Source: an uncultured Hyphomicrobiales bacterium (GTDB lineage: Bacteria > Pseudomonadota > Alphaproteobacteria > Rhizobiales > Beijerinckiaceae). From it: a DNA stretch of 64,000 nucleotides. Below, piece by piece: positions 3,001-17,760 of the stretch (positions are counted from its first letter, which is position 1; every line of letters starts with the position of its first letter). Location: the NCBI GenBank assembly GCA_903847605.1, contig CAINED010000076.1:1-64000 (forward strand). Reading direction: 5' to 3'. Below the pieces are notes generated by a model. That model was not told where the DNA came from. It saw nothing but the letters and a program-made list of their open reading frames with translations, and ran no database searches. Made by a program: the position numbers and the translations under genes.

Positions 3001-4659
3001 CGCACGGAATTTTCCATTCCCGTGACGGCGGCCGGCATCGGCCGGGCGGAACTCGCGTTGCGTATCACCGGACCCAATCTCGATGCGACGCAGAATTTCG
3101 CGCTGAATGTGCAGTCCGGCAGTTCGGAAATCTATCGCCGCACGGTGCGCGATCTGCCGGCCGGACAGAGCATCACGATCACAAACGATCTCGTGGCGGA
3201 TTTCCTGCCGGGCACGGGCGCGATCTCCGTTGCGGCCTCGCCGCTCGGCGCCATCGACGTGCCGGCGCTGCTGCAGGCGCTCGATCGCTATCCCTATGGC
3301 TGCACGGAACAGACCGTGAGCCGCGCGCTACCGCTGCTCTATGTCAACCAGCTTGCGACGGCGAACCTTCTCGCGCTCGATGGCGATCTGCGCCAGCGTA
3401 TCCAGTCGGCCATCGACAAGGTTCTGTCGCGGCAGGATGCGAGCGGCTCCTTCGGCCTGTGGTCTTCGGAAAGCTCGAACGATCTCTGGCTCGACGCCTT
3501 CGTCAGCGACTTCCTGACGCGCGCGCGGGAAGCCAATTACGAAATCCCGCAACGCAGTTTCGATCAGGCCCTCGACCGCCTGCGCAATCAGGTGGTCAAC
3601 GCCAGCGATGTATCCGCGGCGAATTCGGGACCGATCGCCTATGCCATCTATGTGCTGGCGCGTAACGGCCGCCCGATCATCGGCGACCTGCGCTACCTTG
3701 CTGACACGAAGATGGAGGCTTTCACCAATCCGCTGGCGCGCGCGCAACTCGGCGCGGCCTTCGCGCTGCTTGGCGACCGCGGCCGTGCGACCGCAGCCTT
3801 TGAGGCCGCGTCGCGCTTGCTCGTCGCTTCGCAACGCACGCGCTTCTCGCGCTCCGATTACGGTTCGCTGTTGCGCGACAGCGCGGGCATGCTCGCCCTC
3901 GCCGCCGAAACGAATGCGGGCGATGCGATGCTGACGCGCGCGGCGATGACCGTGCAGCAGGAGCGCGGCTTCACGCGCTATACCAGCACGCAGGAAAACA
4001 CCTGGATGGTGCTGGCCGCCACTGCGATGTCGAAGCAGGCGCAGAACATGACGCTCACCATCGATGGCCAGCCGCACAAGGGTGCTTACTTCCGCACCTG
4101 GCGCGGCTTCGCGCTCGACGGGCGCGAAGTGCGCATCGGCAACGAAGGCCAGTCGCCGGCGCAGGTCGTCATCACGACGGCCGGCCAGCCTTCGGTGAAG
4201 GAGCCCGCGGAATCGCAGGGCTATCAGGTCGAGCGGAATTACTTCACGCTCGAGGGCAAGCCCGCCGATCTCGCCAACATCAAGCAGAACGAGCGCCTTG
4301 TCGTGACGCTGAAAGTCACCGAACTCGAAGCCGCCTATGCGCGTCTGCTGCTGGTCGATCAACTGCCGGCGGGTCTCGAGATCGACAATCCGCGTCTTGT
4401 GGACAGCGGCTCCATCGAAGCCCTGCCGTGGCTGAAGAGCGACGTGTCCGTCGATCACGCGGAATACAAGGACGACCGCTTCGTTGCTGCCTTCGAACGC
4501 GCCGGCAAGCAGAAGGCCGTATTCTACGCCGCCTATATCGTGCGCGCGGTGACACCCGGGCAATATGTGCTGCCGCCGGCGTCGATCGAGGACATGTATC
4601 GTCCCGAGCGCTTCGGGCGCACGGCCTTCGGCACGGTCACGGTCACCAGCGCGAAGTAA
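1..4659 (+). CDS. yfhM: Alpha-2-macroglobulin family protein, thioester type (5' partial)
   Basis: Large periplasmic protease-trap protein; the frame is open from base 1, so the N-terminus with signal peptide lies outside the window (1552 residues visible). An MG2-like strand (YAERGVYRSGETV) lies near visible residue 335, and the thioester motif C-T-E-Q is encoded at 3301-3312 (PYGCTEQTVSR), followed by the helical thioester domain and a C-terminal receptor-like beta domain. The family captures proteases that cleave its bait region and is thought to guard the periplasm when the envelope is breached. pbpC follows 8 bases after the stop, the same pairing as E. coli yfhM-pbpC, where PBP1C would repair peptidoglycan. 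The intact CxEQ argues for an active thioester form rather than the thioester-less YfaS type. Confidence 0.95.
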   Translation, partial: SDLVTPRICFQFSESLKARTEFTPFIAVSGNANGAITNEDRQLCVEGLKHGERYSIVVRQGLPSAVEEQLLKSSDYEIYVKDRSPQARFTGKNYVLPRVGQEGIPIVSTNTPKIALDVVRIGDRGLLPAVRSDEFLSQVSSYRLRDLLDNKGVKVWTGTLDVKAELNKDVITAFPVLEALKKLEPGVYVMASLPGEKAPSQVMEDNDDSYENLSTQWFVVSDLGLTSFSGDDGVHVFARSLASAGPLANLEVRLIARNNEILGTAKTDANGHAKFDPGLSRGTGGLAPGLVTASDGNGDYSFLDLATSAFDLTDRGVKGRPAARALDALVYAERGVYRSGETVNVSALLRDPRGNAVAGVPLTLVVRRPDGVEYKRASVGDQGLGGRAWSVNLLPSVKSGTWRVSAYADPKSPAIGEATFLVEDYLPERLDVTIAPQEKQVQPGTTANIDTVARFLYGAPGSDLEISGELVIQATKQLNLPGLEGYVAGLEDQEFETIKKDIETSDNTDDDGKATVEVEIPDVDTTRPLEAKFIIRVAEAGGRAVERMVTLPVRPNKSLIALRKNFEELREDSSATFNVIALNAEGNRVGANGLRWTLSRVTNNYQWYNSDGRWSFERVKTTRRVSEGTVDATPQGVASISAPVGWGAYRLDVVSSDGSLAPVSISFNVGWSGDASADVPDLLEVNLDKKGYNAGEALKLRVTSRFEGNATIAIVGDQLREIVLADLKTGDNAIDIPVKPEWGASAYAVVLAHRPLDQQARRMPGRALGLAWFAVEAGQRKLEVSMPVPDKVEPRKPFAIPVELKGLTPGEDAYITLAAVDVGILNLTRYKTPDPTNHFFGQRQLGVEIRDLYGLLIDGMQGTRGAIRSGGDSAGGGVEGNRPTQEPMARYSGVVKVGPDGRAQVTFELPAFNGTVRLMAVAWSKSRVGSAEKDVFVRDPVVVQATLPRFLNFGDKSQFHMQIDNVDGAPGQYVVDVDIRGPVTIAAEALRRTITLNAKQRTEFSIPVTAAGIGRAELALRITGPNLDATQNFALNVQSGSSEIYRRTVRDLPAGQSITITNDLVADFLPGTGAISVAASPLGAIDVPALLQALDRYPYGCTEQTVSRALPLLYVNQLATANLLALDGDLRQRIQSAIDKVLSRQDASGSFGLWSSESSNDLWLDAFVSDFLTRAREANYEIPQRSFDQALDRLRNQVVNASDVSAANSGPIAYAIYVLARNGRPIIGDLRYLADTKMEAFTNPLARAQLGAAFALLGDRGRATAAFEAASRLLVASQRTRFSRSDYGSLLRDSAGMLALAAETNAGDAMLTRAAMTVQQERGFTRYTSTQENTWMVLAATAMSKQAQNMTLTIDGQPHKGAYFRTWRGFALDGREVRIGNEGQSPAQVVITTAGQPSVKEPAESQGYQVERNYFTLEGKPADLANIKQNERLVVTLKVTELEAAYARLLLVDQLPAGLEIDNPRLVDSGSIEALPWLKSDVSVDHAEYKDDRFVAAFERAGKQKAVFYAAYIVRAVTPGQYVLPPASIEDMYRPERFGRTAFGTVTVTSAK

Positions 4660-4667
4660 GTGCAACG

Positions 4668-6773
4668 ATGAGCGCAGGCGCGCGCGAGCGCAAACGAAGA
4701 CGCAAATATGCCGCGGCGATGATCGTCGCCGCGGCTTTGGGTCTCGGCGTGCCCGCGGCGTGGGAGAATTACGTCGCCTCGCTCGGTCCGCTCGACTATT
4801 CGCCCGCGCAGCGCGGCTCGACAGTCGCCGTGGACCGTAACGGACAGTTGCTGCGCGCCTTCACGACGAAAGAGGGACGCTGGCGGCTGCCGCTGGAAAC
4901 GCAGGATGTCGATCCGCGCTTCCTGGCGATGCTGAAAGGCTACGAAGACAATCGCTTCGACAGCCATGAGGGGATCGACTGGCGCGCGATGCTGCGCGCC
5001 GTCACGCAGGCCGTTACCAACGGACGCGTCGTTTCCGGCGGCTCCACGCTGACGATGCAGGTTGCGCGCCTGCTCGAGCCGCGCGACGAGCGGACTTTGC
5101 CTGCAAAACTGCGCCAGATCGTGCGCGCGGCGCAGATCGAACGGCAGTTGAGCAAGAAAGAAATTCTCGATCTCTATCTCGTGCTCGCGCCCTACGGCGG
5201 CAATCTCGAAGGATTGCGCGCTGCGAGCATCGCCTATTTCGGGAAGGAGCCGAAGCGCCTGTCCTTCGGCGAACAGGCGCTGCTGGTCGCCATCCCGCAA
5301 GCGCCGGAAGTGCGAAGGCCTGATCGCGCGACAGGAATTGCCAAACGCGCGCGCGACCGCGTGATCGACCGCGCCGTCGAGCGAAAGCTCATTACGCGAG
5401 AGGAAGGCGAACGCGCCAAAAGCGAGGCAGTGCCATCGCAACGCCATCCCTTCCCCTCGAATGCGCCGCATGCTTCGGAAGCCGCGCTCGCAGCAGCGCC
5501 GTCCCAGCGCATCCTGCAATTCAGCTACGATCGCGCGCTGCAGGTTTCGCTCGAAGCGCTGTTGAAAGAACATGGCGAGCGGCTTGACCCGAAGATCACC
5601 GGCGCCATCGTCGTCATCGACAACAAGAGCGGGCATATTCTCGCGCGCGTCGGCTCGGCCGATTACTTCTCCAGCGAGCGCGCGGGCGCCATCGACATGA
5701 CGAATGCGCTGCGTTCGCCGGGTTCGGCGCTGAAGCCTTTCATCTATGCGCTCGCTTTCGAGAACGGGGTCGCGCATCCCGAAACGATGGTCGACGACCG
5801 GCGCACGCGCTACGGCATCTATGCACCGGAAAATTTCGACCTCACTTTTCAGGGTCAGGTGAGTGCGCGGCTCGCGCTGCAGATGTCGCTCAACATTCCC
5901 GCTGTCGCTTTGCTCAACGAAGTCACGCCGTCGCGCTTTCTCGCGCGGATGAAGAACGCCGGCGCGAATATCGTCGTGCCCAAGGAAGCGCCGCCGGGAC
6001 TTGCTCTGGCGCTTGGCGGTCTCGGCATCACGCTGACCGACCTGGCCCGGCTTTATTCCGGTCTCGCGCGCGGCGGCGATATGCCCCAACTTGTCGAGCG
6101 GCTCGACAGGCCGCGTCCGTCCGCGCAAGGCGCAACCATCGCCGAACCCGTCGCATCCTGGTATGTCGCCGACATCTTGCGCGGTACGCCGCCGCCGACC
6201 AATGCGCTCGCGGGAAAGATCTCCTTCAAGACAGGCACGTCCTATGGCTATCGCGACGCGATTGCCGTTGGCTTCGACAGCCGCGTGACGATAGCTGTCT
6301 GGCTCGGGCGGGCCGACAATGGCGCGGTGCATGGCCTCGTCGCGAGGCAGGCAGCTGCGCCCGTTCTGTTCGACGCCTTCGCGCGCATTCCCGGCGCCAT
6401 TGCGCCGGTAACGCGCCCGCCGAACGCACTCGTCGCGCGCACGAGCGAATTGCCGCCGCCGTTGCGATCCTTGCGCAAGGATACGCCGAAAGCCATCGCG
6501 AGCGCGCAGACCAGCGAAATGAAGATCGCCTATCCGCCGCAGGGTGCGCGCGTGGATCTTGGTCTTGCGCGCGGCCCGACGCGCGAAGCCCTGCTCGCGC
6601 TGAAAGTGCAGGGCGGCGTTGCGCCGTTTACATGGATCGTGAACGGCGCGCCCATCGGTACGCCGGAACATCGCCGCCAGTCCACGTGGACGCCCGACGG
6701 CGCAGGTTTCGCGCGCGTTTCCGTGATCGACGCGAAGGGCACGACGGATTCGGTGCTGGTGCGGCTGGAATAG
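4668..6773 (+). CDS. pbpC: Penicillin-binding protein 1C
   Basis: Bifunctional murein glycosyltransferase/transpeptidase of 701 residues. A short cationic N-terminus precedes one membrane anchor (about residues 14-31). The GT51 domain carries the catalytic Glu93 in YEDNRF and the SGGSTLTMQVARLL motif; the transpeptidase domain shows SALK (SxxK), SLN (SxN) and KTGTS (KTG); the PBP_C tail starts near IAYPPQGARV. The ATG at 4668 was chosen because the upstream in-frame codons overlap the alpha-2-macroglobulin gene and the anchor begins right after this ATG. It is probably cotranscribed with the preceding gene. Its TAG stop abuts the stop of the convergent YfhO-type gene with no spacer. Confidence 0.95.
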   Translation: MSAGARERKRRRKYAAAMIVAAALGLGVPAAWENYVASLGPLDYSPAQRGSTVAVDRNGQLLRAFTTKEGRWRLPLETQDVDPRFLAMLKGYEDNRFDSHEGIDWRAMLRAVTQAVTNGRVVSGGSTLTMQVARLLEPRDERTLPAKLRQIVRAAQIERQLSKKEILDLYLVLAPYGGNLEGLRAASIAYFGKEPKRLSFGEQALLVAIPQAPEVRRPDRATGIAKRARDRVIDRAVERKLITREEGERAKSEAVPSQRHPFPSNAPHASEAALAAAPSQRILQFSYDRALQVSLEALLKEHGERLDPKITGAIVVIDNKSGHILARVGSADYFSSERAGAIDMTNALRSPGSALKPFIYALAFENGVAHPETMVDDRRTRYGIYAPENFDLTFQGQVSARLALQMSLNIPAVALLNEVTPSRFLARMKNAGANIVVPKEAPPGLALALGGLGITLTDLARLYSGLARGGDMPQLVERLDRPRPSAQGATIAEPVASWYVADILRGTPPPTNALAGKISFKTGTSYGYRDAIAVGFDSRVTIAVWLGRADNGAVHGLVARQAAAPVLFDAFARIPGAIAPVTRPPNALVARTSELPPPLRSLRKDTPKAIASAQTSEMKIAYPPQGARVDLGLARGPTREALLALKVQGGVAPFTWIVNGAPIGTPEHRRQSTWTPDGAGFARVSVIDAKGTTDSVLVRLE

Positions 6774-9119
6774 CTATTTCAGCTTTTCTTTGAGGCTCGC
6801 GAACAAGCCTTCAAACGGCTTGAAGCGGAACGTCACCACATGCTGCCCTTCGGGAATCGCAACCGCGCGGAAGATGACATTGGCGCGCAACAGCTCCGCC
6901 GGCTTTCCGTCGATCTCCACCGTCCACCAGGGATGCCAGACATCGTGCAGCACCAGCCATCCCGGCGCGCTTGATGTCGCCTCCACGCGCACTTCCGTAT
7001 TGCCGTAAAAGAGAATGCGCGCCCGCGTCTGCGCCGCAGCTTCGTTTTGCACATTTAATACAGGCGCGGCCTCCAGCAACACGGTGTTTCGGAAATCGAC
7101 GGTGGGCCACTCACCGCTCTTGATCATCGCGTCGAAGCTGGCCGCGACGGCGCGCGATGCAATCAGCACGCGCGGCAGCGCATGCGGATTCTCATAGATA
7201 TAGGCGTCCTTCGTGCGGGTGATTTCCTGGAGGTCGCCCGGTTTGAAATTTTTGTCGAGTTCCTGCGCGGGCACGCCGAATGCGAGATAGCGCACGCCCA
7301 GCAGATCGAGCATCGGCGAACGATAGGAGTTGAACAGCGGCGAGAATTTGCGCTGTTCGGGGATCGCGACATGGTCAATGGCGCCTGTGGCATTGGCATA
7401 CCAGCCGAGCACCAGTGGATTGTAGCCCAGCCAGTGATCGAAGCCGTGAACAAGCGCGGTATCAGGCCATGCAAAGCCGACAGCCGACATGTCGACCCGG
7501 TCGCGCCGGTCGGGCGCTGCCGCCTTCTGCAAGCGGTCCATCAGCAGGTTGATGGTGGGATTGGCGGTTTCCGGCCGCAGCACGTCGTACTCTTGCGGCG
7601 GCAGCGCCGTCGATTCATTGGGCCCGTTGCTGAGCGCGAGATCGGCGGTCATCGCCACTGCCGCGAGAACGACGGCGACATTCACGCGATGCCAGTTCAG
7701 CCGCATGATCCAGAGAAGGAAGCTCGCGAGGAAGAAGCTGGCGACGGCGATAGTGAGCGGCACGCCAATTTGGGACAGCCTGCCCTTGCTCCATGCAATG
7801 AAGACACAGGAGAGCAGCGCCAGACAGACGAGCGAAATACTCGCGATCATCTGCAGTTTCGTCTGCCTGTCCTCCGCATCGAGAAGTCGATGGACGAGGT
7901 AGCCTGCGATGAGCGCCGCCATTGCGCCGAGAATGAATGTCGCATCCGCGGGTCTGCGAAACATGTCCGCCCCGGGCAGCGTATAGGCCAGTTGAAAGAA
8001 GGGCGTATATTTGCCGAGCGCGTAAAGAATGGCGAAGATCGCGACGACAGTGAAGAAGCGAATCTCGCGGTCGAAGATGCGCCCGCGCACGACGCCGATG
8101 GCGATCAGCGCAACGACGGGCAACGCCCCGAAATAGATGTCCGCCATATTGCGCGCGAGGGCGAGATTGTCGTTCCACACCTCCGGCGTCGGCGGGCCCC
8201 AATATTTCGCCATGGGTCCGGCCGTGCCGAAGAGATTGGCGCTGATCATTGTGAAGAAAGCTGCGGGATGGAGCGATGCCGCCACTGCGCTTTCATAGGT
8301 GATGACGGGCCGGTTCGACTGCGCGGCGAAAACGGCGGTGAGGAGGACAGGAAGCGCAACGATCAGCAATCCCGTGATTGCCGCTCCGCCGGTCGGGATG
8401 AAATTCGAAAGAAAGCGTTTCAATCCGAACGGCGCTTCGAAGAGACGTGCGAGGACATATGTCGCGAGAACGAGCACGCACAGCAAGGCGACCTGATCGC
8501 GCCCGATCGCCATGAAGGCTGCGGCAACGCCGGCGAGCAGGCCCCACAGGAAGGATCGCCGGTCGAGCGCACGCGCCAGCAGCCACAACGCAATGGCGAA
8601 CCAGCACAGGCTCATCACCTGTCCGAGATGCTGAATGCGCCAGGCGTTCGATGCGCCAAAAGAAAAGACAAACGCCGCGACAAGCGCGCCGGCGGGATGC
8701 CAGCCACGATCGCGCGCATACATGAGAATGCCAAGGCCGCCGCAAAAAAGAGTCGCGAAAACCGCTGCATCGGCGGCTCTGAATCCGGGAACGGGATTCA
8801 GCAAAGCCAGTATCAGGAATGGCGGAGAGAAAATCAGCGACTGGGGATCGGCGATCTGCGGCTGACCGCTGAAGACATTGGGCGCCCAGAAGGGCCATTC
8901 GCCGGCGTGAATGGAGCGCGCGAGAAAGACCAGCGAGGGGTAAAATTCCGCCTTGGCGTCCCAGGGGATCGTGTACCTGCCGGAGAGCCAGGGAAAGGCA
9001 AGGACAAGCGTGCCCAAGGCAAACAGCAAAACGGCCGGTAGATAACCCGGCCGCTGCTGATCGATCGTACCGCTGATGTGCAGATTATTCGACGGCGTTT
9101 GACTTGGATTCCGGGGCAT
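6774..9119 (-). CDS. YfhO-family multi-spanning membrane protein
   Basis: 781 residues with roughly a dozen hydrophobic segments and a large C-terminal soluble portion (from about residue 500). It begins with a GT-C-like arrangement: a first membrane helix (LLFALGTLVLAFPWL), then a periplasmic loop containing WDAKAEFYPS, as in the YfhO family. Members are thought to be polyprenyl-phosphate-sugar-dependent glycosyltransferases; YfhO in Firmicutes is linked to lipoteichoic-acid glycosylation. The substrate here is unknown. The start overlaps the 3' end of the GTP cyclohydrolase II gene by 35 bases, suggesting translational coupling, so it may belong functionally with the GTP-derived cluster next to it. 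Confidence 0.85.
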   Translation of the reverse strand: MPRNPSQTPSNNLHISGTIDQQRPGYLPAVLLFALGTLVLAFPWLSGRYTIPWDAKAEFYPSLVFLARSIHAGEWPFWAPNVFSGQPQIADPQSLIFSPPFLILALLNPVPGFRAADAAVFATLFCGGLGILMYARDRGWHPAGALVAAFVFSFGASNAWRIQHLGQVMSLCWFAIALWLLARALDRRSFLWGLLAGVAAAFMAIGRDQVALLCVLVLATYVLARLFEAPFGLKRFLSNFIPTGGAAITGLLIVALPVLLTAVFAAQSNRPVITYESAVAASLHPAAFFTMISANLFGTAGPMAKYWGPPTPEVWNDNLALARNMADIYFGALPVVALIAIGVVRGRIFDREIRFFTVVAIFAILYALGKYTPFFQLAYTLPGADMFRRPADATFILGAMAALIAGYLVHRLLDAEDRQTKLQMIASISLVCLALLSCVFIAWSKGRLSQIGVPLTIAVASFFLASFLLWIMRLNWHRVNVAVVLAAVAMTADLALSNGPNESTALPPQEYDVLRPETANPTINLLMDRLQKAAAPDRRDRVDMSAVGFAWPDTALVHGFDHWLGYNPLVLGWYANATGAIDHVAIPEQRKFSPLFNSYRSPMLDLLGVRYLAFGVPAQELDKNFKPGDLQEITRTKDAYIYENPHALPRVLIASRAVAASFDAMIKSGEWPTVDFRNTVLLEAAPVLNVQNEAAAQTRARILFYGNTEVRVEATSSAPGWLVLHDVWHPWWTVEIDGKPAELLRANVIFRAVAIPEGQHVVTFRFKPFEGLFASLKEKLK

Positions 9120-10227
9120 CGAGCTCGATGTAATGACCGGCGCGATCGCGCTTGGAGGCGAGATAGCGCACGTTGTGATCGTTCAGGCGGCCTATGATAC
9201 GCTGATCCGCCACGACATCCAGCCCCGCATGTTCGAGAGCGGCGATCTTGAACGGATTGTTCGTCATCACGCGCACGCGGGCGATGCCGAGCTCCTTCAG
9301 CATGGAGGCTGCGAAATCGAAGCCACGCTGATCGTGATCGAAGCCGAGCACTGCATCCGCATCGTAGGTATCGAAACCCTTCGATTGCAGCTTGTAGGCG
9401 CGGATCTTGTTGGAAAGGCCGTTGCCGCGCCCTTCCTGATCGAGATAAAGCAGCACGCCGCCGCCGTTTTCGGCCATGAATTTCACGGTCTGGCGCAACT
9501 GGTCGCCGCAATCGCATTTCATTGAACCGAAGAGGTCGCCCGTGAGGCAGGCCGAATGCAGGCGCACTGTGACCGGTTCGGCGAGATTGGGCTTGCCGAC
9601 CACGACGGCCACCTGATCGCGCAGGCCCTCGCCACCACGGAAGACAACGAATTCAGTGTCAGGCGCCTCTTCGAGAGGAACGGGCGCGCGGGAAATGATG
9701 TGCAGCGATGCCGCATTCCGGCTGCGGAAGATGGAGATCGCCGAGGCGTCGACTTCGATCAGTCCGAGATCCGCAACCGAACGCACCGAAACCGGAACGA
9801 CAATCGCCGCAGGCAGGACCAGCGCGAGATGAAGAAGCTCGAGAGCGGCGGTGTCGAGTTTGGAAAGGGGCGCGACCGGCGCGTCGTAGCGAGCGCTGAC
9901 TTCCAGGGCAAGCGTCGAGATGCGCGCGGTGTCGATGCGCGGCAGGGCGAAGGAGCCAGGCGAAGTGCGCTCGAATCCGAGCCGATTCAGACGCGGAGCC
10001 GGCAGAACGAGACGCGCGTTGCGGCGCGCAAGGTTTTGCAAGTCGGCGGCGATCCGCTCGTCGAGCGCTTCAACGCCAAGTGCGACGGCGAGAGACTGGC
10101 CAGCGCGCAATAAAACGGGCCTGCCGGCCCGTACTTCGGAAATCGCCCGTTCCACGGCGACAGTCTGTCTGTCCCCGCGGACGTCCGCGAACAAATCGGA
10201 AATCGACACGTCTACCCTCACTTGCAC
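9085..10227 (-). CDS. GTP cyclohydrolase II with extra N-terminal domain
   Basis: The C-terminal ~200 residues are a complete GTP cyclohydrolase II: zinc ligands in CLTGDLFGSMKCDC (C-x10-C-x-C), catalytic Tyr in KIRAYKLQ (equivalent to E. coli RibA Tyr105) and Arg in LGFDHDQR. It should open GTP to 2,5-diamino-6-ribosylamino-pyrimidinone phosphate with release of formate and pyrophosphate. The N-terminal ~175 residues are a weakly recognisable extension at the place where RibB fuses in RibBA, but I see no DHBP-synthase catalytic acidic motif. It lies divergent from a RibD-type reductase and near a PTPS homologue, glycosyltransferase and methyltransferase rather than ribE/ribH, so a specialised pathway is more likely than housekeeping riboflavin synthesis. 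GTG start; alternative GTG codons lie a few codons downstream. Confidence 0.9.
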   Translation of the reverse strand: MQVRVDVSISDLFADVRGDRQTVAVERAISEVRAGRPVLLRAGQSLAVALGVEALDERIAADLQNLARRNARLVLPAPRLNRLGFERTSPGSFALPRIDTARISTLALEVSARYDAPVAPLSKLDTAALELLHLALVLPAAIVVPVSVRSVADLGLIEVDASAISIFRSRNAASLHIISRAPVPLEEAPDTEFVVFRGGEGLRDQVAVVVGKPNLAEPVTVRLHSACLTGDLFGSMKCDCGDQLRQTVKFMAENGGGVLLYLDQEGRGNGLSNKIRAYKLQSKGFDTYDADAVLGFDHDQRGFDFAASMLKELGIARVRVMTNNPFKIAALEHAGLDVVADQRIIGRLNDHNVRYLASKRDRAGHYIELDAPESKSNAVE

Positions 10228-10438
10228 GCAGGCCGCCGAACCCCCGGCCCAAACGTAGGGAGACCGTCGCCAAGGTCCATGATACAGCCCCGCTCAAACT
10301 GCCATATTAATGTGACAGCGAAAAGTGGCGGAAAAATCACGAAGGTGCGACGCTCCAGAGTAGTTACGCTCGAGACCGCCTTCCGGTTTCAGCTTCAGCC
10401 ATAGAAAATACGATGCATATCGTCTATGCGCTGTGGTC

Positions 10439-11113
10439 ATGGATATTTTCGCCCCGTTTCACGAAGCGCACCCATTTTCGCCGTTCGTTGTCGGGCAGAT
10501 CGGCCAATCGCTCGATGGCCGTATCGCCACCCTTTCAGGCGATGCGCAGAACATCGGGGGAGCGGCCGGGCTCGATCATCTCCACCGGCTGCGCGCGGAA
10601 GTGGACGCTGTCGTGGTGGGCGCCGCCACGGTTCTGGCCGACGATCCGCAGCTCACGGTACGCCGGGTCAACGGCGCCAATCCTGCCCGCGTGGTCATCG
10701 ATCCCCGGGGTCGGATCGGCGGTGGTGGCCGCTGGCTGAATCCGGACGGCGCGCGAAGGATTCTCGTCACATCGGCGCAGACAGGCCCGGCCGGCTGCGA
10801 CGACATCATCGCCTTGCAGACCGGGATTGACGGTTTTTCGCCTTCACAAATTATCGGCGAACTTTTTCAGCGTGGTTTGAGAAAAATTCTCATCGAAGGC
10901 GGAGCAATCACCCTGTCCCGTTTCCTGCAGGCGGGCTGTCTCGACAGGCTGCATGTCGTCGTGTCGCCTCTGATCATCGGCGCGGGAAAACCCTCGCTCG
11001 AACTTCCGCCGATCGAGCGCCTTTCGCAGGCCATGCGCCCGGCGACGCGGATTTTCCTTCTTGGCGGCGGCGAAGTATTGTTCGATTGCGACATGCGCGA
11101 GGGGCAGAAATGA
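10439..11113 (+). CDS. RibD C-terminal-type (DHFR-fold) reductase
   Basis: Stand-alone RibD_C reductase domain of 224 residues without the deaminase half. Recognisable elements are the N-terminal GQIGQSLDGRIA, DAVVVGAATVLADDPQLTVR, PARVVIDPRGR and the late ILIEGGAITLSRFL and LLGGGEVLFD motifs of NADPH-dependent pyrimidine or dihydrofolate-reductase-like enzymes. It would be expected to reduce the ribosyl side chain of a pyrimidine made by a GTP cyclohydrolase II such as its divergent neighbour. The ATG at 10439 was preferred over a GTG two codons upstream. Its stop overlaps the next start in an ATGA arrangement. Confidence 0.88.
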   Translation: MDIFAPFHEAHPFSPFVVGQIGQSLDGRIATLSGDAQNIGGAAGLDHLHRLRAEVDAVVVGAATVLADDPQLTVRRVNGANPARVVIDPRGRIGGGGRWLNPDGARRILVTSAQTGPAGCDDIIALQTGIDGFSPSQIIGELFQRGLRKILIEGGAITLSRFLQAGCLDRLHVVVSPLIIGAGKPSLELPPIERLSQAMRPATRIFLLGGGEVLFDCDMREGQK

Positions 11114-11673
11114 GCGCCACGAACGACAGCACCGGCAGGCCTGAACATTACGCGCCACTGGCCAAATGGCTGCACTGGATCATTGCATTGCTCGTGATCG
11201 GCATGATCCCCGCAGGCATCGCCATGGCGAATATCGCGCCGGGGCCGCTGCAGGACCGGCTCTATCTGCTGCACCGCTCCACCGGCTTGCTCGTCCTTGC
11301 GCTCGCCATTATCAGGCTGTTCGTGCGCGCGAGCTATGGCGCGCCCGCGCCTTATGCGGGACTCACGCGCTTCGAGCGCATCGCTTCGACGGCGACGCAT
11401 CATCTTCTTTATCTGATGCTGTTCTTCATGCCGATCGTCGGCTGGATGATGGCCTCGGCCTTCGGCGCGACGACTTCCTTCTACGGCTTGTTCGACATGC
11501 CGAACCTCGTCGGCAAGAACGAGGCATTGTTCAAGGTATTGCAGAAGGCGCATTTCTTCGGCGGCATATTGATGGCGCTGCTTATCCTCATGCATTTCGC
11601 CGGCGCGATGATGCATACGTTCGTCAAGCGCGACATCGTCCTGTGGCGCATGCTGCCGCGCAGCTGGAGTTAG
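11110..11673 (+). CDS. Cytochrome b561 family protein
   Basis: Four-helix membrane cytochrome b of 187 residues. Candidate haem histidines are in KWLHWIIALL, LLHRSTGLLV, ATHHLLYLM and the AHFFGG...LMHFAG segments, matching prokaryotic b561/CybB. It would transfer electrons between the quinone pool and a periplasmic or cytoplasmic partner. It overlaps the RibD-type reductase gene by 4 bases, so the two are cotranscribed and probably coupled in translation. A palindrome begins at its stop codon and likely ends the transcript. Confidence 0.9.
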   Translation: MSATNDSTGRPEHYAPLAKWLHWIIALLVIGMIPAGIAMANIAPGPLQDRLYLLHRSTGLLVLALAIIRLFVRASYGAPAPYAGLTRFERIASTATHHLLYLMLFFMPIVGWMMASAFGATTSFYGLFDMPNLVGKNEALFKVLQKAHFFGGILMALLILMHFAGAMMHTFVKRDIVLWRMLPRSWS

Positions 11674-11721
11674 AGCATGGGGCGAAAAAGTAGCCCCGGT
11701 TTTTCGCTAACCCGATGCTCT
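11672..11721. repeat. Dispersed palindrome, GAGCATG/GAAAAAG type (copy 1)
   Basis: Imperfect inverted repeat: outer arms AGAGCAT and ATGCTCT, inner arms GGGGCGAAAAAG and CGGTTTTTCGC. It starts inside the TAG stop of the cytochrome b561 gene and lies between it and the convergent methyltransferase gene, so it may act as a bidirectional terminator. A related palindrome is at 47925-47972. It resembles a very common rhizobial intergenic element. Confidence 0.65.
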
Positions 11722-11738
11722 CTTTATTGAATCGCAAA

Positions 11739-12578
11739 TCAGTTCGCGCGCGCATAAAGATCGAGATGGCCGATCTCGCAATGCACCGCCGTTTTCTTGT
11801 CCGCCAGCCATGAAGCAACATCGTCTGCGGCGACACGTCCGGTTTCGCCGACGGCATGAGCAATTCCGCTCGCGAGTTCGCTCATAAGCAGGCGATCTTT
11901 GACGCTTAATCGCCATGGGCTTTCACCCGTCGCGACAATATATCCTTTGCGCCTGAAGGCTTCGCTCATCAGAGCCGTGGCGTTCGGACCGGCGGCTGCG
12001 CCAAATCCCTTGTCGGTCGACTGATGGGCGTTGAAAGCGGCGAGCATGGCCGCATCTGCGCGATGCGGAGGCGACCAGACCTCGCGCCCGTCGTACGTCA
12101 GGATCGTGTAGAGCGGCAGTTTGCGCGCCGTGAGCGCGACGATGAACGTCTCGATGAACCGCTCCGAGACAAGATCAAAAAAGGCAGCGGCTGTGACAGC
12201 GTCGGCCGGCTCGTCGAGAATCGTGTCGAGATCCTTCGAAAGGTCGCATTGCACGAAGCTTGTTTCGATGATGCGTGCGTTCTTTTCCAGCCTAACGCCC
12301 GCTGAAGTATCCTCAGCGCGGTCCGCCCAACGGCACAAGAGCTCGCGCGCCGCAGCGAGAAGCCTTGCGTCGTAATCGACAAGCCGCCACGTCTGGCGCG
12401 GGCCGAGATGAGGCGCCAGCGAGCGCAGATGCGATCCCGAGCCGCAGCCGATGTCGGTCAGCGTGACGTGATCGCGTGCACCGAAATCGCGCATGAATGC
12501 CGCGCGCACATCGGCATTGACCGAGCGGTGATCGACGGGTTCGCGCAAAGACAGCCAGTCGACGGAAAAGCCGCTCAT
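11739..12578 (-). CDS. Class I SAM-dependent methyltransferase
   Basis: 279 residues with a Rossmann methyltransferase core; motif I is TLTDIGCGSGSHL, followed by an acidic residue after the second strand (WRLVDYDARLL). The AADAMLAAFNAHQ region and a C-terminal segment rich in charged residues do not point to a known substrate. The start overlaps the stop of the upstream glycosyltransferase in ATGA fashion, so it is the last gene of a four-gene minus-strand unit (dehydrogenase, PTPS homologue, GT4, methyltransferase). Context suggests it methylates a pterin- or pyrimidine-derived product or its glycoside. Confidence 0.82.
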   Translation of the reverse strand: MSGFSVDWLSLREPVDHRSVNADVRAAFMRDFGARDHVTLTDIGCGSGSHLRSLAPHLGPRQTWRLVDYDARLLAAARELLCRWADRAEDTSAGVRLEKNARIIETSFVQCDLSKDLDTILDEPADAVTAAAFFDLVSERFIETFIVALTARKLPLYTILTYDGREVWSPPHRADAAMLAAFNAHQSTDKGFGAAAGPNATALMSEAFRRKGYIVATGESPWRLSVKDRLLMSELASGIAHAVGETGRVAADDVASWLADKKTAVHCEIGHLDLYARAN

Positions 12579-13636
12579 GACTCAACTCCTGGCACTTCCG
12601 CAACCTGGCGGATGGCGGCGGCGATCTTTGCGGCGGTGTTTTCCCAGCGAGGCAGATTTTCCGCCTCAATCCATGCGGCTTCGGCGATTTGCCGGCGTAA
12701 GGAAGAATCCTGAATGAGCTTTCGCAGCGCATCTGCAAGCCCGATTGCATCGCCCGACGCGACTTTCATCGCCGCGCCATCGGGAACAGTCGTCGCTGCC
12801 GCTCCGCCAGTTGTCGTGACGATGGGCAGACCGCGCGAAAGGGCTTCGGTCAGCACCATGCCATAGCCTTCGTAGTGCGAAGCGGAGACGAAGATATCCG
12901 CTGCGGCGTATAGTTCCTCTAGCGCTGCATCATCGACTTCGCCCGTCAGCACGATACGCTCGCCAAGATGCGCATCAGTAATCTTGTCTTTCACGCGCGC
13001 GGCAAAATCCGGCGCGCGCGAAATCGAACCTGCAATCGTGCAGCGCCAGTCAAGATTGCCGATACGCGAGAGCGCGTCGACGAGCACATCATATCCCTTG
13101 CGTGGCACCACGGAGCCGACAGCAAGAAGTTGTGGCGCACCCGCGCCGCCGACCATGCGCGGTTTTCTGTCCGTGCCCGGCTCGGCGACGGTCATTTTTT
13201 GCGCGGGCACGCCGAAATCGTTGACGAGCGTCTTCGCGGTCTCGCCGCTGGTGACTATGACATGTGCGGAAGCCGCTAGAACCGCGCGCTCGTTCTGCAG
13301 AAGGTGTGCGGCGAGTTCAGCTTCCAATCCTGATTCCAGTCCCAGCGGATGATGGCAAAGTGCAATAATTCCGGCGCTTGTCGCCGCCGCGAATTCCGCA
13401 GAACATGCACCCCATGCAAGGCCATCGGCCACAATGACGTCCCCCGCAGGAACGCCCGCAAATTTCACGCGTGTCGTTGCAAGATCGTCGGCGGAAGGAA
13501 ATGGAAAGCTCGCCGGGAGCTGCATATGCACGACATCGATGCCGAATTGCGGCAGTAACGCCATCACGCGGCGATCGTAGATATAGCCGCCGGTTCGGGT
13601 CTCGATATCGCCGGGAATGGCGAAATGCACGCGCAT
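12575..13636 (-). CDS. Glycosyltransferase family 4
   Basis: 353-residue GT-B fold retaining glycosyltransferase. The N-terminal acceptor domain begins HFAIPGDIETRTGGYIYDRR; the C-terminal donor domain has LLAVGSVVPRKGYDVLVDAL and the E-x7-E signature in HYEGYGMVLTEAL. No signal peptide or membrane segment, so it is a cytosolic enzyme. Placed between a PTPS homologue and a methyltransferase, it could glycosylate a reduced pterin-like molecule, as in cyanopterin-type glycosides; this is inference from neighbours. ATGA overlap with the methyltransferase downstream. Confidence 0.9.
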   Translation of the reverse strand: MRVHFAIPGDIETRTGGYIYDRRVMALLPQFGIDVVHMQLPASFPFPSADDLATTRVKFAGVPAGDVIVADGLAWGACSAEFAAATSAGIIALCHHPLGLESGLEAELAAHLLQNERAVLAASAHVIVTSGETAKTLVNDFGVPAQKMTVAEPGTDRKPRMVGGAGAPQLLAVGSVVPRKGYDVLVDALSRIGNLDWRCTIAGSISRAPDFAARVKDKITDAHLGERIVLTGEVDDAALEELYAAADIFVSASHYEGYGMVLTEALSRGLPIVTTTGGAAATTVPDGAAMKVASGDAIGLADALRKLIQDSSLRRQIAEAAWIEAENLPRWENTAAKIAAAIRQVAEVPGVES

Positions 13637-13663
13637 TTCATGCGCTCCATAACAGAGCGCCGG

Positions 13664-14068
13664 TCATTGTGGGATCGTGCCTTCATACCAGGCGCGCGCG
13701 ACATGAGATTCATGCAGCGTCACCTTGATGCGTGAAATGCCTTCGCCGCCAGGGCCCAGCTTGCCGGCGCGCTGCGCTTCGGCCATCGCATCGAAGATAT
13801 GTTTGCAAAGAAATTCCGTCGTCGTCTGCTTGCCCTGGAATTGTGGGAGTTCGTCCAGGTTCTGATAATTCAGCGGGCCAAGCGTCGCCTTCAAGGCGTC
13901 ATGGGCACGACCGATGTCAACGACGACGCCATCGTCCGTCAGAGACTCACGATAAAAGGCGACATCGACGACGAAGGTCGCGCCGTGCAGCTTCTGCGCC
14001 GGGCCGAACAATTCGCCCTTGAAAGAATGGGCGATCATGATGTGCTCGCGCACTTCGACTGCAAACAT
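13664..14068 (-). CDS. 6-pyruvoyltetrahydropterin synthase/QueD homologue lacking catalytic residues
   Basis: 134 residues, the right size for a T-fold PTPS subunit. The N-terminal strand with IMIAHSFKGE keeps the first zinc histidine. In the region that in QueD reads Cys-x3-His-Gly-His, this protein reads AQKLHGA, so the nucleophilic Cys position is Ala and the third zinc His is Ala. VVDIGRAHDAL and NYQNLDELP correspond to the ID-F and LDH-LND regions; TTTEFLCKHIF matches the PTSE helix. It should therefore not act as a standard 6-carboxytetrahydropterin synthase; a different reaction on a pyrimidine or pterin is likely. It sits 12 bases after the dehydrogenase gene and 27 bases before the glycosyltransferase. 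Confidence 0.85.
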   Translation of the reverse strand: MFAVEVREHIMIAHSFKGELFGPAQKLHGATFVVDVAFYRESLTDDGVVVDIGRAHDALKATLGPLNYQNLDELPQFQGKQTTTEFLCKHIFDAMAEAQRAGKLGPGGEGISRIKVTLHESHVARAWYEGTIPQ

Positions 14069-14080
14069 GGATGAACTCCT

Positions 14081-15079
14081 TCAGGGATAGGTAATGACGG
14101 CAGCGAGGCCCGCGCCGGATGTCAGGAATTTTGGCAGCTTCTCAGGCGCATCTTCGAATTCGATTTCGTCCGTGATGAGGGCATCGAGCCGTTCGTCCCT
14201 GAGCAGATCGAGCGCCTTGCCGAGGCGGCGCGCGTAGTCCCATCGCGGACGTCGTATCGGAGATACGCTGCCCACCTGCGAAGAGATCAGTTGCAGCCGG
14301 CGGCTGTGGAACGCTCCGCCGAGCGGCGCGGCGACGGCGCCTTCGCCATACCAGCTGAGTTCCACGACCTTCCCCTCGAAGCCCGCAGCGCCGATCGCGG
14401 TTGCAAGGCCCGAAGCCGATGCGCTGGCATGAAAGACGATGTCGGCGTCGTCTGCGATTGTGTCAGGCGCGGAAAACCGCGCGCCGAACGACCGCACAAT
14501 GGAAGACCGCGACGCGTCGATGTCGCAGGCGACGACATCGGCCCCCGGCAAACCTGCGCAGATATAGGTCACCAGAAGTCCGACCAGCCCGCAGCCGACA
14601 ATCGCGATGCGATCTCCCGGCCCCGCGCCGGAATCCCACACAGCATTCAGCGCGGTTTCCATGTTGGCGGCAAGCGCCGCGCGGCGCGACGGCAAACCTT
14701 CGGGCAGGACCCGAAGCATCGAGGCCGGCGCGACGAAGCAATCCTGATGTGGATGCAGAGAGAACACCGGTTTCCCGAGGATTTCACGAGGGCCATCCTC
14801 GACGAGGCCGACAGCGCAATAGCCGTATTTCACAGGGAAAGGGAAAGAACCGTCCTGCAAGGGCGCGCGCATCCGCTCGAATTCCGCTAGGGGCACCCTG
14901 CCTTCGCACACAAGCCGTTCCGTGCCGCGGCTGACGGCGGAAAACTGCATACGCACAAGGGCTTCGCCGGTTCCCGGCGAACGCAGATTCTCTTCGCGCA
15001 AGACAGCGCGGCCCTGGCTCTCGTACCAGAGGGCCCTTGCCGTGCGGTTTGCGGCTGCTATGTCCTTCTCGCCCAACAT
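14081..15079 (-). CDS. Zinc-binding-dehydrogenase-like MDR oxidoreductase
   Basis: 332 residues. GroES-like N-terminal domain (LRSPGTGEALVRM, SAVSRGTERLV) and a Rossmann domain (GDRIAIVGCGLVGLL, VVACDIDASR). The catalytic Cys and the lobe of four structural Cys residues typical of zinc alcohol dehydrogenases are not visible (SRGTE replaces the C-G-T-D segment), so it may be a zinc-free reductase. It is the first gene of the minus-strand unit and is divergent from the glucosyltransferase gene with 73 bases between, which must hold both promoters. The substrate is unknown; a keto or hydroxyl group on the PTPS-homologue product is a reasonable guess. Confidence 0.83.
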   Translation of the reverse strand: MLGEKDIAAANRTARALWYESQGRAVLREENLRSPGTGEALVRMQFSAVSRGTERLVCEGRVPLAEFERMRAPLQDGSFPFPVKYGYCAVGLVEDGPREILGKPVFSLHPHQDCFVAPASMLRVLPEGLPSRRAALAANMETALNAVWDSGAGPGDRIAIVGCGLVGLLVTYICAGLPGADVVACDIDASRSSIVRSFGARFSAPDTIADDADIVFHASASASGLATAIGAAGFEGKVVELSWYGEGAVAAPLGGAFHSRRLQLISSQVGSVSPIRRPRWDYARRLGKALDLLRDERLDALITDEIEFEDAPEKLPKFLTSGAGLAAVITYP

Positions 15080-15152: not shown

Positions 15153-16964
15153 ATGTCCCCCAGAGAAATCGAGCCTGCAGCCCCTTCCCTCGCTATCGCG
15201 GGCGCGCCGGCCATGACGCCGGCGGGAGTCCAGCAGGCGCAGGTTTTGACGCGCCGGCGCTGGATCGTCTTCGCACTCAACACGCTCACCTATCTGGGGC
15301 TGCTTGTCTGGCTTGCCAGTATCCTGGGTCACGGCGGCTGGAGCGTCATCGACGCGGCGATATTTTTCGGCTTCGCCATCGCCTCGCCATGGACCGTGCT
15401 GGGCTTGTGGAATGCCCTCATCGGCGTCTGGGCGCTGCACTTCTCGGGCGACGCTGTCGCCGCCGTCGCGCCGCATGCCGCAGCAGCAGATGTGCCCACC
15501 CCGATCACGGCCCGCACAGCCATCGTCATGGCGATTTATAATGAGGATCCCCGGCGCGCGATCCTGCGTCTCGAAATCGTGCGCGAATCCGTCGAGCGCA
15601 CCGGAGAAGGCGCGCATTTCGATTATTTCGTTCTGAGCGACACGCGCGATCCCGGCATCGCCAAACGCGAGGAAGAGGAATTCGACGTATGGAAAGCACG
15701 TTCCGGCGCGGGCGCGGCGCGGCTGCATTACCGGCGGCGCGCCAGTAACGAAGGCTTCAAGGCCGGCAACATGCGCGAATTCGTCGAGACGCGCGGCAAT
15801 GGGTACGAATTCATGATCCCGCTCGACGCCGACAGTCTGATGTCGGGCGAAGCCATCGTGCGCATGGTACGCGTCGGGCAGGCCTGGCCGAAGATCGGCA
15901 TCCTGCAGGGCCTTGTCACCGGCGCGCCGGCCAAATCCGGCTTCGCACGCCTCTTCCAGTTTGGCATGCGCCACGCCATGCGGCCTTATACGTCGGGCGC
16001 GGCGTGGTGGAACGGCGATTGTGGTCCATTCTGGGGCCATAATGCGCTGGTGCGCATCGCGCCCTTTCGCGATCATTGCCATCTGCCTGTTTTGCCGGGC
16101 ACCGGGCCGCTGAGCGGACGCATTCTCTCGCACGATCAGGTCGAAGCCGTGCTGATGCGGCGCGCAGGCTATGAAGTGCGCGTACTGCCGCAGGAAGGCG
16201 GCAATTGGGAGGACAATCCGCCGACGCTCTCGGAATTCTCGCGCCGCGATACGCGCTGGTGCCAAGGCAACCTTCAATATCTGAAACTGCTCGATCTCAA
16301 GGGCATCGAAGCCACGAGCCGCTTCCAGCTCGTCTGGGCGATCATGATGTTCATCGGCATTCCCGCATGGACCGCCATCATTGCCCTCATCGCCATCAAG
16401 CCGCTCGATGGCGAGACCTACGCCAACTTCCCCGGCATGTCCGCGCTGTGGCTCTATATCGTGTTCATGCTGATGTACCTGTCGCCGAAACTCGCGGGCT
16501 ACTTCGATGTGGCGCTGACGAAAGGCGGTTTGAAAAGCTATGGTGGCGGACCACGTTTTGCCGCCGGCGTAATTGCGGAAACCGTCTTCTCGCTGCTTCT
16601 CTCATCTGCAACGACGTTCAGAACCGCTATTTTCGTGCTCGGACTTCCCTTCGGTGTCAGTGCAACATGGAGCGGTCAATCGCGCGATGCCCATCGCGTG
16701 GCGTGGGATGAGGCCGCGAAGTTGCTCTGGCCGCAGTTGCTTTTCGGCTTCTTCATTTTCGGCGCGGCTTTTCTGCTGGCGCGCGCAACGATCCTGCCGA
16801 GCCTGCCGCTGACTCTGGGATATGTTGTTGCGATACCGCTGGCTGTCATGACGTCGGGCGCAGCGCTCGGCGCATTCCTGCAAAGCACCGGCCTTTGCGC
16901 GATTCCCGAGGAATTCGACACGCCGCGCGAAATCGCCGATTTCGAATCGCGCCGGAGCCGCTGA
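15153..16964 (+). CDS. mdoH: Glucan glucosyltransferase, OpgH/MdoH type
   Basis: Inner-membrane family 2 glycosyltransferase of 603 residues, shorter than E. coli OpgH (about 850). Membrane segments flank a cytosolic GT2 domain with TAIVMAIYNEDPRR, the metal-binding acidic residues in PLDADSLMSGE and the processivity motif RDTRWCQGN (Q/RxxRW type). It should polymerise UDP-glucose into beta-glucan extruded to the periplasm. No opgG lies next to it; instead a methyltransferase, an exported protein and an acyltransferase follow in tight succession, suggesting a specialised glucan. Confidence 0.9.
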   Translation: MSPREIEPAAPSLAIAGAPAMTPAGVQQAQVLTRRRWIVFALNTLTYLGLLVWLASILGHGGWSVIDAAIFFGFAIASPWTVLGLWNALIGVWALHFSGDAVAAVAPHAAAADVPTPITARTAIVMAIYNEDPRRAILRLEIVRESVERTGEGAHFDYFVLSDTRDPGIAKREEEEFDVWKARSGAGAARLHYRRRASNEGFKAGNMREFVETRGNGYEFMIPLDADSLMSGEAIVRMVRVGQAWPKIGILQGLVTGAPAKSGFARLFQFGMRHAMRPYTSGAAWWNGDCGPFWGHNALVRIAPFRDHCHLPVLPGTGPLSGRILSHDQVEAVLMRRAGYEVRVLPQEGGNWEDNPPTLSEFSRRDTRWCQGNLQYLKLLDLKGIEATSRFQLVWAIMMFIGIPAWTAIIALIAIKPLDGETYANFPGMSALWLYIVFMLMYLSPKLAGYFDVALTKGGLKSYGGGPRFAAGVIAETVFSLLLSSATTFRTAIFVLGLPFGVSATWSGQSRDAHRVAWDEAAKLLWPQLLFGFFIFGAAFLLARATILPSLPLTLGYVVAIPLAVMTSGAALGAFLQSTGLCAIPEEFDTPREIADFESRRSR

Positions 16965-16965
16965 C

Positions 16966-17760
16966 ATGGGCGTTCTCGACGAATGGCGGGGCTTATGGCG
17001 CTCGATCAAGGTTTATCGTCTCGACAAGAACCACGCGCGGGCGCTCGATGAAATGCATCGCGATTTCGCAGGTCCGGACGATCTCGTCTTCGACATAGGC
17101 GCGCATGTCGGCGATCGCACGGCGTCCTTCCGGCGGCTCGGCGCGCGCGTTGTCGTCTGCGAACCGCAGACCAATTGCTTACGCGTCTTGCGCCTGCTGC
17201 ACGGGCGGGACCGCGATGTCACCTTGCTCGAAACCGCCGTCTCCGATCGCGAGGGCGTGCTGACCTTTTCGGTCAATACGCGCAATCCCACGGTCTCCAC
17301 GCTCTCGACCGAATTCGTCACGGCCGCGAATGCGGGGGCGAAAGGATGGGAGGGGCAGACCTGGGACAAACAGGTCCAGGTGAGAGCGACGACGCTCGAC
17401 GCGTTGATCGCAAAATACGGAGCGCCCGTGTTCGTGAAAATCGACGTCGAGGGCGCCGAAGAACAGGTGCTGCGCGGGTTGAGCGCGCCTGTGCCGGCGC
17501 TTTCGTTTGAATTCACCACGATACAGCGCGATGTTGCGGATGCCTGCCTGCGGCGATGCGCGGACCTCGGTTATGACAGGTTCAATGTCTCGCTCGGCGA
17601 ATCGCAAATCATGACCTTTGCTAGCCCCGTGGACGCCGGGACGATGCGCGGGCATATTGCCGGCCTTCCCCATGAAGCCAATTCCGGCGATATCTACGCC
17701 TTGCGCGACGACTGGACCGGCAGGACCGGCTTGAACATGAAGGGCGATACACGAGAATGA
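16966..17760 (+). CDS. FkbM family methyltransferase
   Basis: 264-residue SAM-dependent O-methyltransferase. Motif I is LVFDIGAHVGDRTASF, followed by ARVVVCEPQ, and the FkbM signature PVFVKIDVEGAEEQVLRGL is intact. Members methylate hydroxyls of sugars or polyketides. It starts one base after the glucosyltransferase stop and its own TGA overlaps the next ATG, so it is part of a four-gene operon. A role in O-methylating glucan residues or the tip of the chain is inferred from position. Confidence 0.9.
   Translation: MGVLDEWRGLWRSIKVYRLDKNHARALDEMHRDFAGPDDLVFDIGAHVGDRTASFRRLGARVVVCEPQTNCLRVLRLLHGRDRDVTLLETAVSDREGVLTFSVNTRNPTVSTLSTEFVTAANAGAKGWEGQTWDKQVQVRATTLDALIAKYGAPVFVKIDVEGAEEQVLRGLSAPVPALSFEFTTIQRDVADACLRRCADLGYDRFNVSLGESQIMTFASPVDAGTMRGHIAGLPHEANSGDIYALRDDWTGRTGLNMKGDTRE

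Follow-up and report, generated by a model that had tools for sequence, protein, structure and literature searches.

We analysed a 64,000-nucleotide stretch of DNA (contig CAINED010000076.1 of assembly GCA_903847605.1, positions 1 to 64,000), here called the window, from an uncultured Hyphomicrobiales bacterium whose genome comprises 5.34 Mb in 92 contigs. The window carries a gene cluster around a homolog of PTPS, with a GTP cyclohydrolase II (GCHII), a RibD-type reductase, a medium-chain dehydrogenase/reductase (MDR)-type oxidoreductase, a family 4 glycosyltransferase (GT4) and an S-adenosylmethionine (SAM) methyltransferase (MT). An initial annotation had proposed that these genes, with a cytochrome b561 and a YfhO-type protein, form an uncharacterised pathway to a GTP-derived glycoside. 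A list of open reading frames (ORFs) and a search with Pfam and NCBIfam profiles returned every listed gene at the same coordinates and in the same family, and the plus strand holds four divergent genes absent from that list (MdoH, FkbM, a 343-amino-acid protein and HGSNAT_cat). The genes are given below with their profile scores and, for the less constant ones, their frequency among the 97 loci described afterwards.

14081 to 15079, minus strand: MDR-type oxidoreductase lacking the typical zinc motifs, core gene (PF00107, 21.8 bits; cut-off 31.8)
13664 to 14068, minus strand: PTPS-IV protein with the FGPAQ signature, core gene (PF01242, 78.5 bits)
12575 to 13636, minus strand: GT4 glycosyltransferase, core gene (PF00534, 103.8 bits)
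11739 to 12578, minus strand: class I SAM methyltransferase, core gene (PF13649, 28.5 bits; cut-off 27)
9085 to 10227, minus strand: GCHII with a decayed N-terminal RibB (DHBP synthase) domain (PF00925, 172.7 bits)
10433 to 11113, plus strand: stand-alone RibD_C-type reductase without a deaminase domain (PF01872, 129.4 bits)
15153 to 16964, plus strand: dedicated MdoH-like membrane glucosyltransferase (NF003963, 860.6 bits, cut-off 884; over the NF003958 cut-off)
11086 to 11673, plus strand: cytochrome b561 (PF01292, 89.4 bits; 33/97 loci)
6774 to 9119, minus strand: YfhO-type membrane protein, 781 amino acids (PF09586, 34.7 bits; 11/97 loci)
16966 to 17760, plus strand: FkbM-type methyltransferase (PF05050, 58.8 bits; 32/97 loci)
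17757 to 18788, plus strand: 343-amino-acid protein of unknown family (no Pfam match; 16/97 loci)
18778 to 19722, plus strand: HGSNAT_cat-type membrane acyltransferase (PF07786, 209 bits; 6/97 loci)

Gene spacing in the window suggests four transcription units. The core genes MDR-PTPS-GT4-MT follow one another on the minus strand with gaps of 12, 27 and -4 bases, and GCHII and YfhO, on the same strand, overlap by 35 bases. RibD and b561 make up a unit on the plus strand, as do MdoH, FkbM, the 343-amino-acid protein and HGSNAT, which begin 73 bases from MDR. The parts are ordinary and their assembly is unusual; public records label such genes QueD, RibA and RibD.

The initial annotation had staked its proposal on homologs being co-located in other genomes, and such co-location was found across 97 loci. 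PTPS relatives were collected from plasmids (20 records, 14 stretches fetched), from genome contigs (the best 80 of 589 matches) and from 398 Pseudomonadota genomes drawn without regard to gene neighbourhood, 27 of them positive for PTPS-IV (20 of 213 genera). The 97 loci, window included, are those left after removal of two duplicates and of loci with less than 5 kb on either side of PTPS; those from genome contigs are biased to relatives of the window, which led the alignment, and the loci are not phylogenetically independent. Counting family profile matches within 6 kb of PTPS, we found MDR in 91 loci, GT4 in 87, MT in 82 (88 with GT4-MT fusions) and all three in 80; the six loci without MDR were L004, L025, L027, L047, L121 and L122. 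RibD was a neighbor in 64, MdoH in 58, GCHII in 45, a CDP-alcohol phosphatidyltransferase in 20, a flippase-like protein in 17 and a creatininase-family protein in 11. The drawn genomes supplied 26 loci besides the window (two of them duplicates of L036 and L088), with MDR in 26, GT4 in 25, MT in 24, RibD in 22, the CDP-alcohol phosphatidyltransferase in 12, GCHII in 11 and MdoH in 9. Because 23 of these 26 loci carry MDR, GT4 and MT together within 6 kb of PTPS, the co-location exceeds chance.

The genome keeps a separate set of riboflavin genes. A second GCHII lies on contig C3 with a RibB domain adjoining it on the same strand, each within a 386-amino-acid open frame, and is therefore a RibBA. 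A second RibD_C domain lies on C59 in a 401-amino-acid frame, 0.8 kb from the genome's sole lumazine synthase (RibH) match. Neither the cyclohydrolase nor the RibD-type gene of the cluster is thus the only copy, and the reported absence of ribH holds for the cluster (RibE was not searched).

The window GCHII scored far above the PF00925 cut-off of 23.3 and reached 495.3 bits with NF006456 (cut-off 464). Residues C227, C238, C240 and Y278, which we take to be the zinc cysteines and the equivalent of E. coli Y105, were invariant in 29 of 29 aligned homologs selected by length and score. The N-terminal ~180 residues had no match in a Pfam scan. A profile of 38 such domains from cluster GCHIIs, compared with one of 17 RibB domains, gave 88% probability in local (E 2.8e-6) and 94% in global alignment. 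An AlphaFold2 model of the window protein (mean predicted local distance difference test score, pLDDT, 88.2) matched in Foldseek M. tuberculosis RibA2, E. coli and H. pylori GCHII, A. baumannii RibBX and UTP cyclohydrolase, with RibB structures further down (E about 3e-6 and weaker). The RibB motifs D.E.REN[ED]GD and GHT[EQ] were found in none of the 38 domains and the looser R.GHT in one; the 17 RibB controls were chosen by the first motif, so the independent control is GHT alone (17/17). Since the RibB motifs are gone while the N-domain profile and model match RibB, the cluster GCHII is most likely a RibBA descendant of which just the GCHII half could still work. This long form (NF006456, E <= 1e-90) occurred in 18 of the 398 drawn genomes: 12 of 27 with PTPS-IV versus 6 of 371 others (Fisher p 9e-12, kinship ignored). 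In L197 to L200, which comprise genus g129, with the highest NF006456 scores, and two others, the long GCHII stands by itself with no cluster genes close to it.

The RibD-type reductase exceeded the PF01872 cut-off of 24.1 and fell below the equivalog cut-offs of TIGR01508 (100.4 against 186.45) and TIGR00326 (104.2 against 156.35). Its best PDB matches were 2azn and 6p8c, the latter titled 2,5-diamino-6-ribosylamino-4(3H)-pyrimidinone 5'-phosphate reductase, which places the gene, by these matches, closest to the diaminopyrimidine reductases. The LDG motif was present in 74 of 76 cluster RibD proteins and EGG in all 76.

Eight of the 11 loci with a creatininase-family gene also have GCHII, and L042, L127 and L150 have the gene without it. 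In work by Spoonamore in 2006, SCO6655, with Met at the GCHII switch position, reportedly yields a formylated product. A strict link between Met at this position and a creatininase-family gene was rejected: Met and the gene coincide in the Streptomyces loci L009 and L126, and Tyr occurs despite the gene in L044, L059, L133, L137, L139 and L140. The L009 protein scored 141 for MftE (cut-off 172) and 37 for ArfB (cut-off 180) and has no curated assignment. According to an excerpt of PMC9478397, a formamidase first annotated as a creatininase is required for riboflavin in Sinorhizobium; by analogy, this BrbF/ArfB-type enzyme, paired with GCHII, may serve as a model for the cluster creatininase genes, although the window itself has none.

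For the MDR, the best NCBIfam match was bchC at 36 bits (cut-off 291). Of the zinc motifs used here, the C..C..C type was found in 0 of 108 homologs and GHE in 4, and on these motifs and the PF00107 score it was not classed as a zinc MDR dehydrogenase. The methyltransferase model (AlphaFold2, mean pLDDT 97.4) had methyltransferases as its best Foldseek matches. Six ORFs of 656-662 amino acids fuse GT4 to the methyltransferase (L133, L139, L140, L142, L143 and L146, all Pseudomonadota of other classes); these fusions are apparently new. We had suspected a fusion of methyltransferase and flippase, which was not found.

Judged by its motifs, the cluster PTPS belongs to PTPS-IV and is not a QueD (PTPS-I), with which it shares the PF01242 fold family. 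The window protein is the sole PF01242 match in its genome, scored 39.4 bits with TIGR03367 (QueD; cut-off 89.25) and had Streptomyces SCO6650 (3d7j) as its sole PDB match. The SCO6650 structure is said to lack zinc and the catalytic triad and to keep a pterin-type pocket, and we know of no reaction assigned to PTPS-IV. Among 119 cluster PTPS sequences, 117, including the window, carry FGPAQ (the other two have FGPGQ and FGSAQ), and all 119 have HGA in place of QueD's HGH, giving the pattern FGPAQxxHGA and no Cys; three QueD frames taken from further genomes that carry PTPS-IV show CxxxHGH. A separate QueD-like protein was present in 5 of 21 genomes (80-101 bits, three over the cut-off). In the genome of the window, three QueC matches just over a loose cut-off covered only positions 2-71 of 210, and a complete preQ0 route was thus not observed (no search for QueE was made).

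The part of PMC5445326 (2017) that treats this family describes PTPS-IV as cluster-node 62 of COG0720, with 561 sequences, the FGPAQ signature and two neighbouring families, PF00925 and PF01872; PF00925 is there named GTP cyclohydrolase I/FolE2, Pfam's own name being GTP cyclohydrolase II. The window shares the signature and both neighbouring families, and what distinguishes it from that description is that section 19 of the paper does not list MDR, GT4, MT, MdoH or the CDP-alcohol phosphatidyltransferase. The pathway was therefore not wholly uncharacterised, as had been proposed, in that PTPS-IV with these two partners was already in print. A literature search covering few subscription journals found no paper on the product or on the full cluster. 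In excerpt, PMC2853524 and PMC3610822 offer expression tables that list SCO6655 and SCO6652, and PMC11981692 concerns a phage QueD not relevant to the cluster.

Genes for MdoH-like proteins or CDP-alcohol phosphatidyltransferases, on both of which the initial annotation was silent, belong to the set. Within 6 kb, MdoH alone occurred in 57 of the 97 loci, the phosphatidyltransferase alone in 19 and both in one (L150). That the two are near-exclusive alternatives, and that opgG and opgH can lie close by, is apparently new. The window MdoH (NF003958, 506.8 bits; cut-off 419) is 39% (L069) to 76% (L013) identical to alpha- and betaproteobacterial cluster copies, 31-34% to those in L133, L143, L146 and L150, and 33% to the genome's second MdoH on C14, which has opgG upstream. 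A dedicated MdoH group thus accompanies the cluster in alpha- and betaproteobacteria, a Methylosinus plasmid included. The periplasmic glucan genes opgG-opgH (mdoGH) share the MdoH family with the cluster, and on the fetched stretches both lie near it in L133, L146 and L150, and opgG in L140; the window differs in that its MdoH is a second copy with FkbM, the 343-amino-acid protein and HGSNAT as neighbors and no opgG beside it. The phosphatidyltransferase matched PF01066 (66.9 bits in L006). The flippase-like protein matched PF03706 (148 bits) and fell below the TIGR00374 cut-off; our count was restricted to scores of 100 or higher, and as some profile matches are antisense to RibD, 17/97 may be slightly high.

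YfhO, proposed as part of the cluster, does overlap GCHII. Its membership did not hold up: the loci that carry it all have Hyphomicrobiales-type labels or belong to the window's own family, and so we regard it as a local companion. A long plus-strand ORF at 4428-6773, convergent with YfhO, resembles a penicillin-binding protein 1C by eye. A YceI-like gene lies near some clusters (L137:12379-13161, with relatives in L087, L142, L143 and L146); YceI and b561 are often neighbors.

Carriers belong to Pseudomonadota and Actinomycetota, with one metagenome-assembled genome labelled Acidobacteria (L071), a kind of label that can be wrong. They include Alphaproteobacteria, Betaproteobacteria, Xanthomonas, Candidatus Thiodictyon, Streptomyces, Microbacterium and Arthrobacter, the last with MDR, PTPS and GT4 alone. 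Two Streptomyces plasmids carry MDR-PTPS-GT4-MT with a CDP-alcohol phosphatidyltransferase, creatininase and GCHII. Together with the SCO6650 match, they bear out what the initial annotation said of Streptomyces, namely that a similar set with a PTPS of changed active site occurs there, and with it the expectation that the cluster crosses phyla. Three further Streptomyces linear plasmid loci have PTPS-IV by itself (L004:10001-10426, L121:12001-12399 and L122:12001-12399); such lone genes lie near cupin, MBL-fold, sigma-70 and BTAD-regulator genes and possibly reflect a different use of the protein.

A quick, midpoint-rooted tree of MDR, PTPS and GT4 from 101 loci placed L071, the Actinomycetota plasmids, Thiodictyon, the other-class families f51 and f55 and the alphaproteobacterial L088 and L127 on one side. 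On the other, mainly alphaproteobacterial side, betaproteobacterial loci adjoin Bradyrhizobium-type loci and the Xanthomonas locus L068 groups with Rhizobiaceae. This arrangement fits horizontal transfer. Repeated swapping between MdoH and the phosphatidyltransferase was weakly replicated on this tree, with 2 changes among loci that have one label; the number is 12 when loci with neither gene are treated as a third state.

The cluster very probably encodes a dedicated pathway distinct from both riboflavin and queuosine synthesis, as the initial annotation had it. In favour of this reading and of the fuller scheme below are a neighbourhood conserved in the 97 loci and in the 26 not chosen by neighbourhood, the separate RibBA, RibD and RibH and the decayed RibB domain, a PTPS that is not QueD, the co-occurrence of long GCHII with PTPS-IV and the closeness of the RibD-type gene to diaminopyrimidine reductases. 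From the gene families, the product would be a methylated pterin or pyrimidine glycoside; we know of no product assigned to this gene set. In cyanobacteria and Chlorobium, pterins are likewise glycosylated by a glycosyltransferase; those routes start from GTP cyclohydrolase I, unlike the cluster with its GCHII.

A full scheme can be drawn, and we give about even chances to a horizontally spread cluster whose product, a glycoside of a ribityl-pyrimidine or pterin-like compound derived from GTP, is destined for the envelope. GCHII would open GTP to 2,5-diamino-6-ribosylamino-4(3H)-pyrimidinone 5'-phosphate, with a creatininase-family protein perhaps removing a formyl group in some loci, and the RibD-type reductase would convert the ribosyl to a ribityl chain. 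PTPS-IV and MDR would then act on the diaminopyrimidine to give a heterocycle that is pterin-like or modified in another way. GT4 and the methyltransferase, which six genomes encode as a fusion, would glycosylate and methylate it. A membrane step may finally move, extend or anchor the product; in most of the examined loci from alpha- and betaproteobacteria the MdoH-like glucosyltransferase would carry it out, and in others the CDP-alcohol phosphatidyltransferase, often with the flippase-like protein. The scheme also draws on the GT4-MT fusions, the dedicated MdoH group and the opgG and/or opgH genes near the clusters of L133, L140, L146 and L150.

Several observations weigh against this scheme. 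GCHII is near PTPS in just 45 of the 97 loci and RibD in just 64, and those steps may therefore come from elsewhere or be unneeded. The RibD motif DDPxL is kept in just 50 of 76 cluster proteins, and PTPS stands without other cluster genes in L004, L121 and L122. Six of the 18 genomes with long GCHII lack PTPS-IV, and in the four of these six that were inspected no other cluster family lay within about 10 kb. The envelope destination is pointed to by the proximity of the MdoH, CDP-alcohol phosphatidyltransferase, flippase-like and opg genes, and 20 of the 97 loci have neither of the first two.

These last loci would also suit two independent functions that share a neighbourhood, namely an envelope-glycan module (MdoH, FkbM, HGSNAT and opgGH) and a cytoplasmic module for a GTP-derived metabolite (GCHII, RibD, PTPS, MDR, GT4 and MT). 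Divergent transcription in the window is consistent with this, as is a split cluster in G382, where b561, GCHII and YfhO lie together (L202:6492-10915) ~15 kb from PTPS. We consider two modules unlikely, given that a dedicated MdoH group goes with the cluster in both proteobacterial classes and on the Methylosinus plasmid.

Alternatively, PTPS-IV could be a binding or scaffold protein and no enzyme; the substrate of MDR, GT4 and the methyltransferase would then be a ribityl-pyrimidine whose ring closure to a pterin never takes place. Position counts by the motif definitions of PMC5445326 (section 19), from 111 of 121 matches with two duplicates among them, bear on this in both directions. Other residues stand at the catalytic positions of PTPS-I, -II and -III: the PTPS-I Cys site is A24 (110/111), and the PTPS-II Cys site is G22, the PTPS-III Glu site Q25 and the last His of HGH (the third zinc His) A30, each in 111/111. 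Yet H14, H28, N70, D72, E85 and E120 are kept in 111/111, which suggests a working pocket; a binding or scaffold role is, in our judgement, quite improbable.

The extra GCHII and reductase might instead feed flavin synthesis, with the other genes as bystanders. The GCHII and RibD_C families are those of the RibBA-RibD-RibE-RibH route, and the conserved GCHII residues and the EGG motif are kept. A riboflavin back-up is nevertheless very unlikely: the full route genes lie elsewhere, the RibB half is decayed and the deaminase domain is missing, the cluster adds PTPS, MDR, GT4 and MT, and the most constant partners of PTPS are the last three. No Rfam match reached the gathering threshold in window positions 1-40000 and seven loci, so there is no FMN riboswitch there, which also speaks against riboflavin supply. 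Queuosine, like riboflavin back-up and F420, was tested and disfavoured. F420 synthesis likewise starts from a ribityl-aminopyrimidine. That PTPS-IV takes part in this deazaflavin route, as an excerpt of PMC5041015 states citing unpublished work, can be given almost no weight, as CofH exceeded its cut-off in 0 of 27 PTPS-IV genomes (CofG and archaea were not searched), a result that is apparently new, with a split match below the cut-off in G200 (208 and 106 bits against 374).

Returning to the envelope glycoside, a bolder version would be a new class of envelope molecule, with a GTP-derived ribityl-pyrimidine or pterin head group that is glycosylated, methylated and fixed to lipid or glucan; we regard this as unlikely. 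In the lipid variant, the CDP-alcohol phosphatidyltransferase would join the ribityl phosphate to a lipid, and the resulting phospholipid would be flipped outward. In the glucan variant, the dedicated MdoH-like enzyme would fix the head group on a glucan. Across the two variants, a single head-group pathway in the cytoplasm would be served by alternative membrane modules. Given the cytochrome b561 close by, such a product might act in the envelope as a redox-active or light-absorbing compound.

The gene set is widespread in Pseudomonadota (27 of 398 genomes) and also found in Actinomycetota, and its genes carry vitamin and queuosine annotations. If the proposal is correct, GCHII and RibD chemistry would gain a further use besides flavins and deazaflavins, the PTPS-IV group would obtain a function, and GTP-derived heterocycles would be tied to envelope glycans or lipids.

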